From NCBI GenBank assembly GCA_003557485.1, contig PWOI01000079.1:1-24098 (forward strand): a DNA stretch of 24,098 bases. Direction: 5' to 3'. Below are positions 11,998-23,484 of the stretch, piece by piece. The notes under the pieces were generated by a model. The model was not told the DNA's origin, did not search any database, and worked only from the letters and a program-made list of their open reading frames with translations. A program made the position numbers and the translations under genes. The DNA comes from Elusimicrobiota bacterium (GTDB lineage Bacteria; CG03; SLGR01; PWQF01). Each line of letters starts with the position of its first letter. The first letter of the stretch is position 1.

Positions 11998-12630
11998 TTA
12001 TTCACTGAAAAATTTTTTTTCAACTTCCCTTATAGTATCAAAATCAAATCCGCGCCTTGCAAGCAGAGACCTCAGGCGGCGATGGGCCGTAATCCTGTCA
12101 AGGCTCCGGTAGCTTTCAAGCATTCCCCCGCAGGATTTAATTGCAAGAGAGACCCTGTCAGGAGGAGATTCCCTGTTAACTTTTTCAAATGCATCCTCAA
12201 CTATATTGTCTGCCACGCCCTTTTCCTTCAGTTCATTTCTTATGGCAAACTCGCCTTTGGGACGGCTAATCCTGCGGCTACGGATCCATGAGATTGCAAA
12301 ATCCATATCGTCTGCCTCTCCGCATCTTTCAAGTTCTTTCAGCACTTTTTCCGAAATAAATAAAGAATATCCCTTCTTTTTCAGCCGGGCGGCAATTTCT
12401 TCTCTGGATCTCTTTCTGTAAGAGATAAGAAGCCTGCTATAATCCAGAGCTTTTGAAAATATCTGCCGCCTTTTAAGTTTTTCTACAATTTCAACGCTAA
12501 CGCTAAGGCCTTCTTTAAGGTTATTTTCCTCAATTCCGGCAGTGTCCGTATAGCACAGAAATTTACCGTCAATATATATTCTAAAACGTTCTTTTTTTTT
12601 CTTACACGTTTTTAGTGCGGTTATTATCAC
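11998..12630 (-). CDS. recX: Regulatory protein RecX
   Basis: 210 residues, all-helical and basic. RecX proteins bind RecA filaments and usually inhibit their extension. The central block L-D-Y-S-R...R-S-R-E-E-I-A-A-R-L-K-K-K-G (about 62-86) and later tandem three-helix repeats, including the motif D-D-x-x-F-A-I-S-W-I-R-S-R (about 107-119), are typical. An N-terminal extension of about 55 residues folds as a small beta-rich region, as in Firmicute-type RecX. The start is GTG overlapping the Mut7-C stop as GTGA. Its normal partner recA is not next to it or anywhere in the window, so regulation must act at a distance or on a recA elsewhere. Confidence 0.88.
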   Translation of the reverse strand: MIITALKTCKKKKERFRIYIDGKFLCYTDTAGIEENNLKEGLSVSVEIVEKLKRRQIFSKALDYSRLLISYRKRSREEIAARLKKKGYSLFISEKVLKELERCGEADDMDFAISWIRSRRISRPKGEFAIRNELKEKGVADNIVEDAFEKVNRESPPDRVSLAIKSCGGMLESYRSLDRITAHRRLRSLLARRGFDFDTIREVEKKFFSE

Positions 12631-13094
12631 TCAATACCTGCTTTCGCGAGGACCTCTTTAATAAGCTTCTTATGAGTTCCCTTCCAGTAAATTTTTCCGC
12701 ATCCGGGGCACATAGAGAAAGAATCATTATTCTCGAAAATATATTCAGGGACCCTTTCCCTGATATTTTCTTTTTTCACGGGCTCTGTCATAAGGTTACA
12801 GCCGCTGCAGCGGCTGAATATTTTTTCAGGATTTATCTTCAACTTAAACTCTTCCATAACCTCCCTAAGCTGTTTCAGGTAGTCATCGCTTCTAACCCTG
12901 TATAGGCCAAGGGCTTTCCGGCTGCTCAAAGAAGTATCCCGTGTAATTATTATCCTCTTTTCCTTCAAAGAACGGTAAATTATACCATCTCTATCTTTGT
13001 CAGTGAAGTAAGCGGTATTGAAGCCCAATATTCTAAGCCACCTGGCAAGGCGGCCCAGCATAAAGTCAACAAGAAATTTTTTCTCCTGCTCCAC
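12627..13094 (-). CDS. Mut7-C RNase-domain protein (PIN-like fold plus zinc ribbon)
   Basis: 155 residues, typical for stand-alone Mut7-C proteins. The N-terminal PIN-like part starts F-L-V-D10-x-M-L-G-R-L-A-R-W-L-R-x-L-G, the family signature, and has a second acidic motif I-T-R-D53. A zinc ribbon follows with C96-x2-C99 and C129-x2-C132. By family it is a predicted RNase; the substrate is unknown. The GTG start is chosen because the signature begins at residue 7 and no better start lies nearby. A good promoter ends 11 bases before it. It leads the group with recX, alaS and tRNA-Arg, occupying the place where recA often sits. Confidence 0.88.
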   Translation of the reverse strand: MEQEKKFLVDFMLGRLARWLRILGFNTAYFTDKDRDGIIYRSLKEKRIIITRDTSLSSRKALGLYRVRSDDYLKQLREVMEEFKLKINPEKIFSRCSGCNLMTEPVKKENIRERVPEYIFENNDSFSMCPGCGKIYWKGTHKKLIKEVLAKAGIE

Positions 13095-16358: not shown

Positions 16359-18350
16359 TTAATTCTCCCCCAATATCATTTCTTCAAATTTATCTTCCGA
16401 TAAAATCGTGATTCCCATTTTTTGGGCTTTTTTAAATTTTGAACCGGGATCCCTGCCGGCAACAATATAATCCGTACGGGTGCTAACTGTAGAAGAATTT
16501 TTTCCACCCTTTTTTTCAACGGCGGATTGTGCATCTTTTCTGCTGTAATTTTCAAGAGAACCGGTAAAAACAAAAATTTTCCCTTCAAGTCTCCCTCCGG
16601 TTACAGAATAAGCAGGTTTCACTCCTTTTTCAAGTAGTTCTCTTACTATTCGCCTGTTCTGATCCCCGGAAAAAAAATTTACAATATTTTCAGCAACAAT
16701 AGGGCCTATTTCATTAATAAACTCAAGAGCCTCCTTTTTTGCCGAAGAAAGAACATTGATGTCTCTGAATTCATCAGCCAGTATGGAAGCGATGTGCCGT
16801 CCAACCTGTCTGATTCCAAGGGCCCATATAAAATTATCCAGACGGCAAACCTTGCTTTTATTTATTTCTGAAAGCAGGTTTGAAGCTTTTTTTTCGGCAA
16901 AGAGTTCGAGTTTCAGAAGAGACTCCTTATCAAGCGAATATATATCGGGCAGTTTTTTAACCATTCCGCTGTCTACAAGCTGCCCGGCAACTTTTTCACC
17001 GAAACCTTCTATATCCATTGCTCCGGGTGAGGCATAGTGTACCAGGTGCTGTTTCAGCTGTGCCGGGCAGGATATATTAACGCATCTCCGATATACCCCT
17101 TCGGGATCCTGTTTAATCTCTCCCCTGCAGGAGGGGCACTCCTTTGGTGGATTAATTTCTTTCGCCGGGTAAGATTTTTCAACTACTCCCAGTATCTTAG
17201 GGATAACATCACCACCCCTTTCAATCTCGACCCGGTCGCCAACACCTGCATTTATTTTGTCCGCAAAATCAAAATTATGAAGCGTAGCCCTGGAAATTGT
17301 TACTCCACCAACCTCAACCGGTTCCAGTTCGGCTACCGGTGTTATTGTGCCTGTACGTCCGACACTGAAGACAACTTTTCTTATTTCTGTAATCTCTCTT
17401 TTGGCTTTATATTTATACGCTATCGCCCACCTGGGACTGCGGGAAGTTGCTCCCAGATTATGCTGTTCTTCAAACGAATTAACTTTTATAACCGCACCGT
17501 CCGTTTCGTAATCCCTTTTTTCCCTGGATGACTGCAGTTTTTCAAAAGCATAAAAAACCTCTTCTATATTGCGGCATTTGAGATGGTTTTCGTCAACAGG
17601 AAGGTCCCATCTCTTCAATGTTTCAAGCAGTTCCTTCTGAGTAGAAGGCTTACCTTTTCCCTCCCATGCTCCCGAAGCATAGAAAAAAGCGTTCATACGG
17701 CGGCGGGCGACCCTTGAAGGGTCCAGCAGCTTAAGGGTTCCCGCACATGTGTTTCTGGGGTTTGCAAATGTCTTTTTGCCCTCCTTCTTTCGGATACTGT
17801 TTATCCTTCTGAACTCCTTCCTGGTAATAAAAATTTCACCTCTTATTTCAACAATATCCGGGGGATCTTGGGAATTAAGCTTTAGAGGTATAACTTTCTG
17901 TGTTTTTATGTTTTCGGTGATATCGTCTCCGGAACGGCCGTCACCGCGGCTGGAGGCAAGCGTAAGAAAACCTTTCTCGTAAGTCAGTGAAACTCCCACT
18001 CCGTCAATTTTTTCTTCAACAATGTATCCGTCCTTAAGGGAAATTTTTTTATCTATGCTTTCATTCCAGCGCTCAACATCCTTCCGTGAAAATGCATTCT
18101 CAAGGGACAACATCGGTTGCCGGTGATTTACCGTACGGAAAGTATCAAGGGGCCTGTCACCGATTCTTTTTGTGGGGGAGGAAGGAGAATCGTATTCGGG
18201 ATGTTTTTCTTCAAGTTCTTTAAGGCGGCGGTATAAGCTGTCATATTCGGCATCGCTTATAATCGGACTGGCCTTCACATAATAAAGATAGTCATGTTTC
18301 CTTATTTCTTCTCTGAGATTTTCTATTTTTTTACGCTTGCTTTCACTCAT
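16359..18350 (-). CDS. ligA: NAD-dependent DNA ligase
   Basis: 663 residues, normal length. It seals nicks in duplex DNA using NAD+ and is essential in most bacteria. Domains: Ia NMN-binding helices (1-70) with Y-D-S-L-Y-R-R-L; adenylation domain with the catalytic lysine K114 in E-E-K-I-D-G; the conserved R-G-E-I-F (170-174) and D-G-A-V-I-K (284-289); OB fold (about 318-395); zinc finger C405/C408/C423/C428; helix-hairpin-helix repeats (about 440-580); and a BRCT domain (about 587-663) with the G-K-I-F-V-F-T-G motif. The ATG lies 8 bases inside the 3' end of nusB, so the pair is coupled. No separate promoter is obvious, which would place it under the upstream FMN-riboswitch operon. Confidence 0.98.
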   Translation of the reverse strand: MSESKRKKIENLREEIRKHDYLYYVKASPIISDAEYDSLYRRLKELEEKHPEYDSPSSPTKRIGDRPLDTFRTVNHRQPMLSLENAFSRKDVERWNESIDKKISLKDGYIVEEKIDGVGVSLTYEKGFLTLASSRGDGRSGDDITENIKTQKVIPLKLNSQDPPDIVEIRGEIFITRKEFRRINSIRKKEGKKTFANPRNTCAGTLKLLDPSRVARRRMNAFFYASGAWEGKGKPSTQKELLETLKRWDLPVDENHLKCRNIEEVFYAFEKLQSSREKRDYETDGAVIKVNSFEEQHNLGATSRSPRWAIAYKYKAKREITEIRKVVFSVGRTGTITPVAELEPVEVGGVTISRATLHNFDFADKINAGVGDRVEIERGGDVIPKILGVVEKSYPAKEINPPKECPSCRGEIKQDPEGVYRRCVNISCPAQLKQHLVHYASPGAMDIEGFGEKVAGQLVDSGMVKKLPDIYSLDKESLLKLELFAEKKASNLLSEINKSKVCRLDNFIWALGIRQVGRHIASILADEFRDINVLSSAKKEALEFINEIGPIVAENIVNFFSGDQNRRIVRELLEKGVKPAYSVTGGRLEGKIFVFTGSLENYSRKDAQSAVEKKGGKNSSTVSTRTDYIVAGRDPGSKFKKAQKMGITILSEDKFEEMILGEN

Positions 18351-18768
18351 TCACTTTATCAGGTCTTATTTTTTCCTTATTCAGAGAAGCAGCGTCCAGA
18401 ATACCGTTTACAAACCTATGGGAACTCCCGGTAGAGTACTTTTTTGCCAGTTCAACCGCTTCATTTATAGAAACAACCTTGGGGATGCCTGACTCAAAAT
18501 ATATTTCATAAAGCGCCATCCTCATTATTGATTTATCAACTGCGGCTATACGCTCGGGCGACCAGTTTTTGGCATGTTTCTCAATAACTGAATCAATTAA
18601 CTCGATGTTTTCTACAGTCCCGCTTACAAGTTTTTCGGCAAACTCATTTTCCGTGACGCCACTTTCACCACCGGCTATTTCCCAGGCTTTAGGGAGCCCG
18701 GTTTTCCCAACTTCCAGAGTATAAAGAACTCTAAGAGCCAGTTCTCTCGCTTTACGCCTTATCCCCAT
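18343..18768 (-). CDS. nusB: Transcription antitermination factor NusB
   Basis: 141 residues, all-helical, normal length. NusB with S10 binds boxA RNA in rRNA leaders and supports antitermination. The N-terminus R-R-K-A-R-E-L-A-L-R-V-L-Y is the family signature. The late motifs R-M-A-L-Y-E-I and I-N-E-A-V-E-L-A-K-K-Y, then R-F-V-N-G-I-L-D, are intact. The ATG directly follows the ribH stop (TAAATG), and its 3' end overlaps ligA by 8 bases. A ribH-nusB order is common in bacteria. Confidence 0.97.
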   Translation of the reverse strand: MGIRRKARELALRVLYTLEVGKTGLPKAWEIAGGESGVTENEFAEKLVSGTVENIELIDSVIEKHAKNWSPERIAAVDKSIMRMALYEIYFESGIPKVVSINEAVELAKKYSTGSSHRFVNGILDAASLNKEKIRPDKVNE

Positions 18769-19230
18769 TTATTTTATTCTAAGGTACATATCCGACATTT
18801 CCAGCGCCGTCCGGGCCGCTTCTTCTCCTTTGTTTCCTCCTTTTCCGCCGGAACGCTCGAGTGCCTGATCCAGGGTGTCAGCGGTGATTACCCCGAAACT
18901 AACCGGCACTTCTTTGGTTATTCCCTGCTGGGCTATCGTCCTTGCTGATTGCGCCGAAACGAATTCGAAATGAGGAGTTTCTCCCCTTATGACGGCACCC
19001 AGGCAAATTATCATATCAAAACTGCTGTCGGGTATTTTTTCAACGATTGCAGAAATTTCCCAGCTTCCGGGAACTTCAAATACGGTTACGTTTTCTTCTG
19101 AAAGGCCGTTTCTTTCAAGTTCCGAAAGAGCTCCTTCAAGAAGGCGTGACGAAACCTGCTCGTTGCGCCTTGACATTACTATTGCCGCTCTTTTTCCTGA
19201 TCCGCTTATTTTTCCTTTTACAACATTCAT
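18769..19230 (-). CDS. ribH: 6,7-dimethyl-8-ribityllumazine synthase
   Basis: 153 residues, normal length. It condenses 5-amino-6-ribitylamino-uracil with 3,4-dihydroxy-2-butanone-4-phosphate; the enzyme usually assembles as pentamers or 60-mer shells. Motifs: V-P-G-S-W-E-I (53-59), C-L-G-A-V-I-R-G-E-T-P-H (76-87, H87 the probable catalytic base), P-V-S-F-G-V-I-T, and the phosphate-binding E-R-S-G-G-K-G-G-N-K-G. AAGGAG lies 7-8 bases before the ATG. A 40-base gap separates it from ribBA. It takes the butanone phosphate made by the N-terminal half of RibBA. Confidence 0.97.
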   Translation of the reverse strand: MNVVKGKISGSGKRAAIVMSRRNEQVSSRLLEGALSELERNGLSEENVTVFEVPGSWEISAIVEKIPDSSFDMIICLGAVIRGETPHFEFVSAQSARTIAQQGITKEVPVSFGVITADTLDQALERSGGKGGNKGEEAARTALEMSDMYLRIK

Positions 19231-19270
19231 ATTATTTCTCCTTCTCTACCTCCTGCTGTACCCTATTTTT

Positions 19271-20461
19271 TCAATCTAAATAATGCCCCAATTTTTCTTT
19301 TTTTGTCTTTAAATACTTTTCGTTTTCAGGCTTTGGCACAGTCTCAAGAGGTATTCGCGTAGAAATATTAAGACCGTATCCGCTTAAGCCCACTATCTTC
19401 CTTGGGTTATTGGTCAAAAGGCGAATACTGGAAAGCCCAAGGGCAGAAAGTATCTGCGCTCCCACTCCGTAATCCCGCAGGTCAGCCTTGAAACCCAACG
19501 CATTATTGGCCTGAACAGTATCCATCCCGCCGTCCTGAAGACAATAAGCCTTTATTTTATTAACCAGCCCCACCCCTCTGCCTTCCTGCCTCATATAAAG
19601 AAATACCCCGCACTGCTCCCGGGCTATCGTACGCAGGGCCTGGTCCATCTGCTGGCCGCAATCACATCTGAGTGACCCCAGAACATCTCCAGTAAGGCAC
19701 TGAGAATGAACCCGCACAAGAACATCTTTCTTTCCTTTTACATTACCCTTTTCAAGGGCAAGATGGGACCGATCCTTTTCTATAACTGAATTATAAAGCA
19801 TCAATTTGAATTTGCCGTACTTCGTTGGAAGTTCCGCTTCGCAAATCTTTGATACGAAATGCTCGTTTTTATATCGGTATTTTATAAGGTCTGCTATCGT
19901 TATAAGCTTCAACTTATGCTTTTTAACATATTCTTTAAGCTGGGGCAGCCGGGCCATAGTCCCGTCATCGTTCATTATCTCGCATATAACTCCGGCTTCT
20001 TCAAGCCCGGCAAGACGCGCAAGGTCCACAGACGCTTCTGTATGGCCGGCGCGGGTAAGAACTCCTCCTCTCCGGTATTTTATAGGGAACACATGGCCTG
20101 GAGTTGTTATATCGCTCTTTTCGCTTTTACTGTCTGCAAGAATGCGGATGGTTCTTGACCTGTCTGCAGCTGATATACCTGTTGTAACACCTGTACTGGC
20201 GTCGCATGATACGGTAAAATAAGCTTCTTTTGAGTCGGTTCTTCTTTCCATAGGATTCAGTCCCAGTTTATTAAGCCTGCTCTCTACAAGCGATACACAT
20301 ATAAGCCCTCTGCCGTATTTTGCCATGAAATTTACTGCTTCCGGATTTACTTTGGAAGCAGCCATAACAAGATCTCCTTCATTCTCTCGCGACTCATCGT
20401 CAACAACAACAACCATTTTCCCTTCTTTTATATCTCTAATTCCATCTTCTATTCTATTCAT
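19271..20461 (-). CDS. ribBA: Bifunctional DHBP synthase / GTP cyclohydrolase II
   Basis: 396 residues, the standard fused length. The N-terminal half (1 to about 200) is 3,4-dihydroxy-2-butanone-4-phosphate synthase, with D-D-E-x-R-E-N-E-G-D-L (21-31) and T-T-P-G-H-V-F-P-I...R-G-G-V-L-x-R-x-G-H-T-E (119-142). The C-terminal half is GTP cyclohydrolase II, with zinc ligands C255, C266 and C268 in the R-V-H-S-Q-C...R-C-D-C segment and E-G-R-G-V-G-L (293-299). It feeds both branches of riboflavin synthesis. The ATG lies 2 bases after the ribE stop, with GGAG 9 bases upstream. Key residues of both halves look intact, so both activities are expected. Confidence 0.98.
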
Positions 20462-20463
20462 TT

Positions 20464-21024
20464 TTATTTTCTCCGCGCCGCAGCGATGATCATATCAGCT
20501 TCCAAGTTTACAGGATCCGAACTTTTCAGATCTCCAATATTAGTCCTTTTTAATGTCTGAGGAATTACCGCAACGGAAAAACGGCCTCCTTTTATTTCAT
20601 TTACCGTAAGAGATACGCCATTAACAGCGACTGAACCTTTTTCTATTATCTTATCTGTAAATTCGCGGCCGCTTTCTATAGTAATATATACAGTATTACC
20701 GCTTTGCCTCTTTGACACGATTTTACCTACATTCATAACGTGGCCGTACACAAGATGTCCGTGGATACGGCCTGATAATGAAAGAGACCTCTCGATATTT
20801 ACTTTTTTTCCGGCTCTTTTGTTTTTCAGTGCCGTACTGCTTAGGGTTTCTCCCCCGACATCCATGGTCAGTTTGTCTTCGCTAATCTCAGAAACCGTAA
20901 GACATACACCGTCTACCATAAGACTGTCACCCTCAGATATCCCGGTTAATCCGGTTTTTAGCGTAATTTTTCCGGGTTTTAAGGTTATAATCTGTGATGT
21001 TTCTTCCGTTATTCCTGTAAACAT
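20464..21024 (-). CDS. ribE: Riboflavin synthase, alpha chain
   Basis: 186 residues, slightly shorter than usual (about 200-215). It dismutates two lumazine molecules to riboflavin. Two homologous lumazine-binding beta-barrels: M-F-T-G-I-T-E-E (1-8) with D-G-V-C-L-T-V in the first, and a matching N-G-V-S-L-T-V in the second; G-H-L-V-Y-G-H (88-94) carries the conserved histidines. The ATG follows the ribD stop with no gap (TGAATG), with AGGAAGG about 9 bases upstream. The gene is called ribC or ribE depending on species. Confidence 0.97.
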
Positions 21025-22107
21025 TCAGTTTGGCCTTCCTGTTACAACTATGTTATTGCCAAGCCAGAAAGTTTCGATATTTTTCAGGCTCAGCGCATCT
21101 TCCAGCGTTTTAAATCCATCCCCTGCGCAGGCAGAAGGAGCATTCCTTCCCCCTATAATCATATTTCCATATATAAATATTATTTTATCAACTATTCCCT
21201 CTTTAATAAAGTGCCAAGATGTTTCTCCTCCTCCTTCTATCAATAGAGACGTTATCCGGCGGCTGTAAAGTTCTTTTAATATTTTTTTTATATTCATATA
21301 TCCTTTTTTTGAAGGCAGTTCTTTTATTTCAGCCCCTTTTTCTGTAAATTTGTTCTTTTTTTCGACCGGAACTCCTGACGAGGTAAAAATAAGAGTCCCT
21401 TCCGAAACTATTTTAAGGCTATGAGAAATACTGAGATTGCCGTCCAGTACAATCCTGAGGGGATTCTTTGCCGGCGGAGCCTTAAGGCGGTAGTTAAGAC
21501 GGGGATTATCATGAATTGCAGTACCTGAGCCTATCAGTAAGGCATCAGAGTTTCCTCTGACTCTCATTGTCCACTTTCTGGCAGAGGGTGATGAAATCCA
21601 TCTGCTTTCTCCTGAGACAGTCGCAATTTTTCCGTCAAGAGAGATAGCGCATTTAAGAGTTACAAAAGGGCGTTTTCTTCGGTGAAAGCAGGTGAAGTTT
21701 TCAATAATTTCTTCAGATTCACTGCGCATGATACCAGTCAAAACTTCAATGCCTTTACCTTTAAGATAGTTGACGCCGCTTTTTTTAAGCGTGGGGTCCA
21801 ATGCCCCTATTACAACCTTATTTACCCCGGCTTTCACGAGAAGCGGAGCGCACGGAGGGGTACGGCCATGACGGGAGCAAGGCTCAAGCGTAACGTAAAC
21901 TGTTGCTGAACGGGCCAGCTTGCCGGCCTGCCGGAGCGCTTCAGCTTCGGCATGTCTTCCTCCGCATACCCTGTGGTAGCCGGACCCTACTATTTTTCCG
22001 TCCCTGACAATCACGCATCCCACCCGGGGATTAGGAGAAACCATATTTGTCCCCCTGCCTGCAAGTTTCAATGCCTTTGCCATAAAATATGTGTCTGTTT
22101 TATTCAT
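21025..22107 (-). CDS. ribD: Bifunctional riboflavin deaminase/reductase RibD
   Basis: 360 residues from the ATG at 22107. The N-terminal deaminase zinc site is H52-A-E54 and P-C77-S-R-H-G-R-T-P-P-C86. The C-terminal reductase (about 145-360) has L-K-C-A-I-S-L-D-G-K-I-A, G-x-G-T-A-x-x-D-N-P and E-G-G-G-E-T. It performs the second and third steps after GTP cyclohydrolase II. I chose 22107 because family members begin about 8 residues before the Y-x-M-A-x-A-L-x-L-A motif. It has no ribosome binding site, since the terminator U-run touches it. An in-frame ATG at 22146 would add 13 residues and lies inside a palindrome between riboswitch and terminator. First gene of the rib operon. Confidence 0.96.
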   Translation of the reverse strand: MNKTDTYFMAKALKLAGRGTNMVSPNPRVGCVIVRDGKIVGSGYHRVCGGRHAEAEALRQAGKLARSATVYVTLEPCSRHGRTPPCAPLLVKAGVNKVVIGALDPTLKKSGVNYLKGKGIEVLTGIMRSESEEIIENFTCFHRRKRPFVTLKCAISLDGKIATVSGESRWISSPSARKWTMRVRGNSDALLIGSGTAIHDNPRLNYRLKAPPAKNPLRIVLDGNLSISHSLKIVSEGTLIFTSSGVPVEKKNKFTEKGAEIKELPSKKGYMNIKKILKELYSRRITSLLIEGGGETSWHFIKEGIVDKIIFIYGNMIIGGRNAPSACAGDGFKTLEDALSLKNIETFWLGNNIVVTGRPN

Positions 22108-22133
22108 AAAAAAACCCGGAGAAAATCTCCGGG
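22108..22133 (-). terminator. Intrinsic terminator of the FMN riboswitch expression platform
   Basis: Minus strand: CCCGGAGA, loop TTT, TCTCCGGG (22133 to 22115), an 8-bp GC-rich stem followed by seven T (22114-22108), then directly the ribD ATG. This is a textbook intrinsic terminator. In the FMN-bound state it should stop transcription before ribD. The CCGGA of its first arm could pair instead with TCCGG at the 3' end of the aptamer (about 22172-22176), which would be a plausible antiterminator when FMN is low. Confidence 0.88.
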
Positions 22134-22139
22134 TATACA

Positions 22140-22157
22140 GATACATATATATGTATC
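22140..22157. repeat. Perfect 18-base palindrome between riboswitch and terminator
   Basis: GATACATATATATGTATC is identical to its own reverse complement. As RNA it could form a 7-bp stem with an AUAU loop; as DNA it could be a binding site. It contains an ATG (22146) in frame with ribD. It lies 2 bases past the end of aptamer helix P1 and 6 bases before the terminator stem. Confidence 0.6.
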
Positions 22158-22159
22158 CA

Positions 22160-22286
22160 ATCTTCTTCCATCCGGACTTTCACCGTCGGTACCTGAATAG
22201 ACAGGTTCTGCCCATTTAAGAGCTCGCGGACTTACGGCTCAATGGCCGAACACCGCCGGTCGGGACTTACACCCTTTCCCGAAGAT
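22160..22286 (-). promoter_or_regulatory. FMN riboswitch (RFN element)
   Basis: Minus-strand RNA matches the RFN consensus from end to end. P1 is ATCTTC (22286-22281) pairing with GAAGAT (22165-22160). In between, in order, are AGGGTG, CCCGACCGGCGGT, the variable hairpin GTTCGGCCATTGAGCC, GTCCGCGAGC, a stem AACCTGTCTATTCAGGT, and the conserved ACCGACGGTGAAAGTCCGGA then TGGAAGAAG. It binds flavin mononucleotide. With the terminator at 22108-22133 it should shut off the riboflavin operon by premature termination when FMN is plentiful. The predicted start site is at its first base. Confidence 0.96.
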
Positions 22287-22293
22287 TTATTTA

Positions 22294-22322
22294 ATTCTAA
22301 CAGTATCTCCCTGTATTGTCAA
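22294..22322 (-). promoter_or_regulatory. Predicted promoter of the riboflavin-nusB-ligA operon
   Basis: Minus strand: -35 TTGACA (22317-22322, perfect), 17-base spacer, -10 TAGAAT (22294-22299, 5 of 6). The start site near 22287 coincides with the 5' end of riboswitch helix P1, which strongly supports it. The spacer holds an imperfect palindrome, ACAGGGAGATACTGT. Confidence 0.8.
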
Positions 22323-22329
22323 ATTGCGC

Positions 22330-23484
22330 TTATCTGCCCGGTTGAATAGTCTTACCCTGTCTGGCATCATTTAAATACTCACGGGCCCGGATATTATCAG
22401 GTTCCAGCTTAAGTACTCTTTCGAAATACTCAGATGCAGCTTTAAAATTTCCGGCGCGGTACGCATCAAGACCCTGCATATAAAAATACTCAAGATAAGA
22501 CTGTTTTTCACTATCCGAAAAGATATATTCTTTTCCCGGGTCCGGAACGCTGACCCCAGGACGCCATGAAATTGAAATTCTGTGCGAAGAGTTAAGATCT
22601 CCCCAAGGCCTCCAGGCATAATCAAACATAAGCATTGAAAAGTTTATCCCGCCACCTATGGAAAATCCTGCAAGAACTCCGTGGTCATCTGCGATTGCAC
22701 TGTTGTATCCAAGCCGCAATGCCGTTTTAAAACGGCCGGAGTAATGAACATATTCGCTTCCCGCATGGAACGAAGGAATGTTGTCGTAAGGAAAACAGAT
22801 ACTACCGGAAAGGAGCAGCCCTTCAAGAGGTGTATACCAGGCCAAAGAAGTTGTTACTGCAAGCGGCAGAGGATCGGATTTACTGCGGAATTTAACCGGA
22901 AGTCCCGCATTCCTTATTGATATTGAAGACGTAATATCACCGTCATGTCTGAGATATCCGGCATCTACAGCACCCGACACTGCAGTATCTGAATCAATCT
23001 CCTGGTAGATTCCCTTTAATCCCGCTCCTAAATATCCGTTTGAGCCTGCTCTTCCTGAAACATATAATCCTGATGATAAGGAATAAGGACTGTAGCTGTC
23101 TCCTGCAGGCAGGCCGGTCGCGGTATACTTGTCTATATCATCCATTCCGAGAAATCCGCCGTAAACTCCAACGTAAACATTTCTGAAAGGTATCGCCGCA
23201 GCTGCCTGGCTGAAGTGGACATTTTCAAAAAGCCTTGCATGGGAGGCAGAAAAGACCGGACCGCCCTGAACAGAAACTCCGGCCGGATTTGAGAATACCG
23301 CATCTGCGCCGGCAGCTGATGACCCGGAGGAACCGCCCATAGCTATATCTCTTGCAGTACCCTCGAGTTTAAAAACAACTCCTCCTGCGGTTCCTTTTAA
23401 ATCTCTTGAGAAAAACTGCGCGTAACCTTTTCCGCCCACTAAAAAAGAGACTAGAGTTGCCGTAAGCAGTATTTTTATTTTCAC
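22330..23484 (-). CDS. PorV/UPF0164-type outer-membrane beta-barrel with C-terminal TPR
   Basis: 384 residues. A signal peptide (1-22, ending G-Y-A) is followed by the PorV/UPF0164 hallmark G-T-A-R-D-I-A-M-G-G...A-V-F-S-N-P-A-G (42-69). Amphipathic beta strands alternating glycine, tyrosine and hydrophobic residues follow to about 310, ending in S-I-S-W-R-P-G. The last 55 residues add one TPR (about 333-376), which should face the periplasm. Relatives include type 9 secretion subunits and FadL-like transporters; nothing else here points to type 9 secretion, so the role is open. The start is GTG without a good ribosome binding site, 10 bases after the thi4 stop. Its 3' end is 8 bases from the rib promoter and no terminator is visible. 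Confidence 0.85.
   Translation of the reverse strand: MKIKILLTATLVSFLVGGKGYAQFFSRDLKGTAGGVVFKLEGTARDIAMGGSSGSSAAGADAVFSNPAGVSVQGGPVFSASHARLFENVHFSQAAAAIPFRNVYVGVYGGFLGMDDIDKYTATGLPAGDSYSPYSLSSGLYVSGRAGSNGYLGAGLKGIYQEIDSDTAVSGAVDAGYLRHDGDITSSISIRNAGLPVKFRSKSDPLPLAVTTSLAWYTPLEGLLLSGSICFPYDNIPSFHAGSEYVHYSGRFKTALRLGYNSAIADDHGVLAGFSIGGGINFSMLMFDYAWRPWGDLNSSHRISISWRPGVSVPDPGKEYIFSDSEKQSYLEYFYMQGLDAYRAGNFKAASEYFERVLKLEPDNIRAREYLNDARQGKTIQPGR

Follow-up and report, generated by a model that had tools for sequence, protein, structure and literature searches.

A predicted FMN riboswitch in an Elusimicrobiota bacterium joins its terminator to the ribD start codon

The experimental precedent for control of riboflavin genes by the flavin mononucleotide (FMN) riboswitch (RFN element, RF00050) is ribD of Bacillus subtilis, where FMN binding leads to termination upstream of the gene (PMC12288461). 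In the dual transcription/translation platform of Barrick and Breaker (2007, PMC2258182), the terminator lies within 10 nucleotides of the start codon and carries a Shine-Dalgarno (SD) sequence in its 3’ side. Downstream of the S-adenosylmethionine (SAM)-II riboswitch of Sinorhizobium meliloti metA, a terminator stands between two in-frame AUGs, a layout that has been tested: translation begins at the downstream AUG, and the upstream SD is required (PMC9373788). In Elusimicrobiota classes a recognisable SD is found on only 43-46% of genes (PMC10783764). Here we describe the ribD leader on the minus strand of a 24,098-bp contig of an Elusimicrobiota bacterium; this contig in its entirety is the window, and the source genome is incomplete (87%). 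Reading in the direction of transcription, the locus comprises a promoter, an FMN aptamer, a linker, a terminator, and then ribD-ribE-ribBA-ribH-nusB. As modeled here, it is very probably a standard FMN OFF riboswitch that works mainly by transcription attenuation, in a compact form whose terminator is fused to the start codon. It resembles the B. subtilis ribD riboswitch in aptamer class, riboflavin operon, OFF logic and termination before ribD; it differs, in a comparison that did not align the B. subtilis leader, in lacking an SD and in having its U-run directly against the start codon.

The match to the six-stem RF00050 aptamer spans the full length of the model and scores above the gathering threshold (Table 1), and ribD-ribE-ribBA-ribH lie downstream, so placed as for riboflavin-gene control. 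We predict that the element binds and responds to FMN. Matches to RF00050 were gathered from all eight genomes of the order, from 15 of 16 genomes of the phylum and from many of other phyla, and their leaders were aligned side by side. Between aptamer and ribD stands an intrinsic terminator, as expected of an OFF attenuator: the hairpin CCCGGAGA-UUU-UCUCCGGG (22133-22115) is followed by seven U residues and then directly by the ribD ATG at 22107.

A preliminary description of this DNA left out of its account of the switch what we take to be the central element, an antiterminator in which the P1 5’ strand and J1/2 (AAUCUUCGGG) pair with CCCGGAGAUU, the terminator 5’ arm together with some of its loop. 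The predicted duplex (22287-22278 with 22133-22124) has 10 bp at -13.7 kcal/mol and could form neither alongside P1 nor alongside the terminator. When the growing transcript is folded, P1 is preferred until the terminator 5’ arm has been transcribed; the antiterminator then leads by 6-7 kcal/mol in transcripts that end between 22124 and 22119, the two arrangements are equal at 22117, and P1 plus terminator lead by 6.6-7.3 kcal/mol from 22115 onward. A comparable helix of 7-11 bp is found in 15 of 15 Elusimicrobiota leaders, and shuffled P1 strands equal it in at most 55 of 2000 trials for 14 leaders and in 133 of 2000 for L003. When phyla are compared, the J1/2 purine and the arm pyrimidine covary (G/C 34, G/U 6, A/U 9, A/C 2; Fisher p 7e-5, with relatedness ignored).

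These pairings suggest how the switch may operate. Without FMN, once the terminator 5’ arm has been made, the P1 5’ strand and J1/2 would quit P1 and pair with that arm, and with the antiterminator formed the polymerase would read into ribDE-ribBA-ribH-nusB. With FMN bound, P1 would be locked, the arm left free and the terminator formed, so that transcription ends at the U-run, immediately ahead of the ribD ATG. That FMN, by holding P1, removes the antiterminator step follows the established riboswitch mechanism and is expected here. The conspicuous palindrome and upstream ATG of the preliminary description are lineage-specific; the switch itself would lie in the P1 strand, which pairs either within P1 or with the terminator arm.

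The preliminary description rightly saw that the ATG at 22107 abuts the terminator U-run and has no SD. All relatives in the order use an ATG 23-26 residues ahead of the NPxVG motif, the equivalent of 22107, which points to SD-less initiation at this codon. Use of SD sequences, assessed from the genes of the window and from PMC10783764, is mixed among the window genes. The terminator stem ends 7 nucleotides before the ATG, inside the distance set for the dual platform of Barrick and Breaker; unlike that platform, the terminator 3’ arm here carries no SD. Because the stem ends so close to the start and no SD is present, the same hairpin in read-through transcripts should also hinder 30S binding. 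The combination of termination and translation control put forward in the preliminary description is therefore plausible by way of this hairpin, and not by way of ribosomes starting at 22146, as it had proposed. In 13 of the 14 Elusimicrobiota ribD leaders that have a terminator, it lies within 15 nucleotides of the ribD start; outside the phylum this holds for 12 of 33 (Fisher p 0.0004, with relatedness ignored and a lenient start-codon rule).

The same kind of join recurs at a second riboswitch. In this genome a cobalamin-type riboswitch (32.9 bits; L098:1501-1720, G000:C94:26642-26835) is followed by a terminator whose seven U residues run directly into ATGAACAAAA, the join reading CCCGCGA..UCGCGGG-U7-AUGAACAAAA, and the gene that follows is lipoprotein-like. 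Similar joins occur in relatives L099, L100, L101 and L104. It is tempting to speculate that Elusimicrobiota habitually fuse the terminators of FMN and cobalamin riboswitches to SD-less starts, with a single hairpin serving both to end transcription and to keep off the 30S subunit, and with translation of antiterminated mRNA beginning on the U-run without an SD. The layout is there to be read; its translational half would follow from the hairpin position, and we hold the proposal as a whole to be possible rather than probable. If correct, the joining of terminators to SD-less starts, conserved within one phylum across two riboswitch classes, would be a modest, testable case of how SD-sparse bacteria could combine attenuation with translation control. 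A genome-wide habit of terminator-fused starts was considered and rejected: of the SSSTTTTTTTATG matches inspected within the order, just two, at ribD and at the gene behind the cobalamin riboswitch, have a clear intergenic terminator joined to a long open reading frame (ORF). A thiamine pyrophosphate (TPP) riboswitch was found in only 1 of 16 genomes, without the terminator-start layout. In another lineage (L017, L072 and L073), a small membrane-protein-like frame lies ahead of ribD, and the U-run of the FMN terminator adjoins its ATG.

Several points weigh against this picture. The mean unpaired probability around 22107 is nearly equal, at 0.48 in one folded state and 0.49 in the other, so simple accessibility gives no backing to the translational arm, which is argued from hairpin closeness and conservation. 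The antiterminator sites are near-invariant within the order, and the covariation signal is drawn from other phyla. The organism is uncultured, and the model is known from sequence and predicted folding. The accessibility result would suit a pure transcription attenuator, in which the switch is the same and translation is unaffected by how near the hairpin lies to the ATG; this closeness may simply reflect compact leaders. Against it, the closeness is conserved in the order and the phylum and is repeated at the cobalamin riboswitch. We regard a pure attenuator as a serious possibility that falls somewhat short of being probable.

The linker between P1 and the terminator holds, as the preliminary description stated, a perfect 18-base palindrome (GATACATATATATGTATC), which can fold into an 8-bp hairpin with flanking G-U pairs at -6.5 kcal/mol. 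The palindrome on its own is weakly unusual, because perfect palindromes of 18 bases or more turn up in 39 of 300 random windows matched for dinucleotide content and because the window holds a second one of 18 bases (CAGCCGCTGCAGCGGCTG, 12799-12816, in the region of the ORF at 12627-13094). The genus comparison covers two genomes, this one and its relative L010. In the linker of the latter (GATGCTATATATATGTATC) one inserted base and one substitution disrupt the palindrome, leaving a stem of 5-6 bp with G-U at the site; in the remaining six of the order, whose leaders were compared side by side, the palindrome is not present. It is perfect in this genome only and not conserved in the order; a role for it in control is not supported, and a conserved hairpin or protein site was rejected with just the two genus members to compare. 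It is probably a linker hairpin compatible with both switch states. One regulatory part for it, in which its 3’ half would pair with ribD codons 4-10 once the terminator has formed and so close the start region, is indeed predicted by folding (15 pairs, matched by 10 of 300 linker shuffles); no such helix is predicted in the genus relative and predictions are inconsistent across the order, and we rejected this very improbable alternative.

An ATG at 22146, inside the palindrome, was correctly described as in frame with ribD and open through the terminator (an ORF of 373 amino acids), with a weak GGAT 8 nucleotides upstream. The predicted RibD N-terminus would be MYLYTRRFSPGFF from 22146 and MNKTDTYF from 22107. 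On the model drawn from the preliminary description, ribosomes starting at 22146 would translate through the terminator and prevent termination, and P1 would block their binding, so coupling FMN to both steps. SD pairing at 22146 (-3.1 kcal/mol) is weak and near that of 22107 (-3.7 kcal/mol). Among the eight genomes of the order, only this one has the ATG in frame, and the six beyond the genus have no upstream in-frame start codon; in the genus relative, two extra T’s in the U-run put it out of frame, where it opens a 14-codon frame (L010, 756-830) whose TGA overlaps the ribD ATG as ATGA. The conservation that the preliminary description proposed to look for, of palindrome and of upstream frame, thus fails on both counts with two genomes of the genus compared. 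In both folded states the ATG is also predicted to sit within the palindrome stem (unpaired probability 0.00-0.08), the RibD of relatives lacks the extra 13 residues, and ribosomes would have little time to load before the polymerase has made the terminator. Among Markov linkers of matching composition, 39% contain an open ATG in frame, a generous figure since the model learned from this very linker; such an ATG stands 35-39 residues ahead of NPxVG in about 6 of 64 ribD-type leaders. Because it is unconserved, buried in a stem and served by a weak SD, we reject 22146 as a start; the non-conservation suggests that the ATG is incidental, and translation from it is most improbable. The layout recalls S. 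meliloti metA in that two in-frame AUGs flank a terminator behind a riboswitch, and differs in that the upstream AUG lacks a good SD and is unconserved; the retained pair of upstream SD and AUG was not found in the order. A genus-specific leader peptide of 13-14 codons that feeds ribosomes from the upstream ATG to ribD would fit the ATG and MYLYTRR residues common to both genus members and the stop/start overlap in L010, and is just as improbable, the frame being fused to ribD here, stopped in L010 and absent elsewhere (two genomes only), with no clear SD and its ATG buried in a hairpin.

Table 1. Features of the ribD leader and operon, in window coordinates
Feature	Position	Strand	Basis
FMN riboswitch aptamer, RF00050; P1 is 22287-22281 with 22165-22159	22156..22290	-	98.2 bits, gathering threshold 66.2
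Predicted antiterminator 5’ strand (P1 5’ strand and J1/2)	22278..22287	-	10 bp with 22133-22124
Predicted antiterminator 3’ strand (terminator 5’ arm and part of loop)	22124..22133	-	Pairing; A/G-U/C covariation across phyla
Intrinsic terminator, stem 22133-22126 / 22122-22115, U7 22114-22108	22108..22133	-	Sequence and folding
Perfect 18-base palindrome in P1-terminator linker, probably a spacer hairpin	22140..22157	-	Not conserved
Upstream in-frame ATG, unlikely to serve as a start codon	22144..22146	-	Frame, conservation, SD strength, accessibility
Sigma-70-type promoter, TTGACA 22322-22317, 17-nucleotide spacer with TG, TAGAAT 22299-22294	22294..22322	-	Consensus match 11/12
ribD, 360 amino acids	21025..22107	-	TIGR00326, 326 bits; start position common to all order relatives
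Remaining controlled operon	18343..21024	-	ribE 20464-21024, ribBA 19271-20461, ribH 18769-19230, nusB 18343-18768

The promoter boxes set the start of the transcript at about the base of P1, and relatives in the order have TTGACA/TAAAAT-like boxes at an equal distance upstream of P1. The closest named relative is ‘Elusimicrobia bacterium CSSed10_282R1’, with 77% RibD identity, from a contig scan that returned this one Elusimicrobia relative only. The gene just upstream of the riboswitch (22330-23484) resembles the PorV/PorQ family at 74 bits, under the curated cut-off, and the -35 box of the ribD promoter lies about 8 nucleotides past its stop codon.
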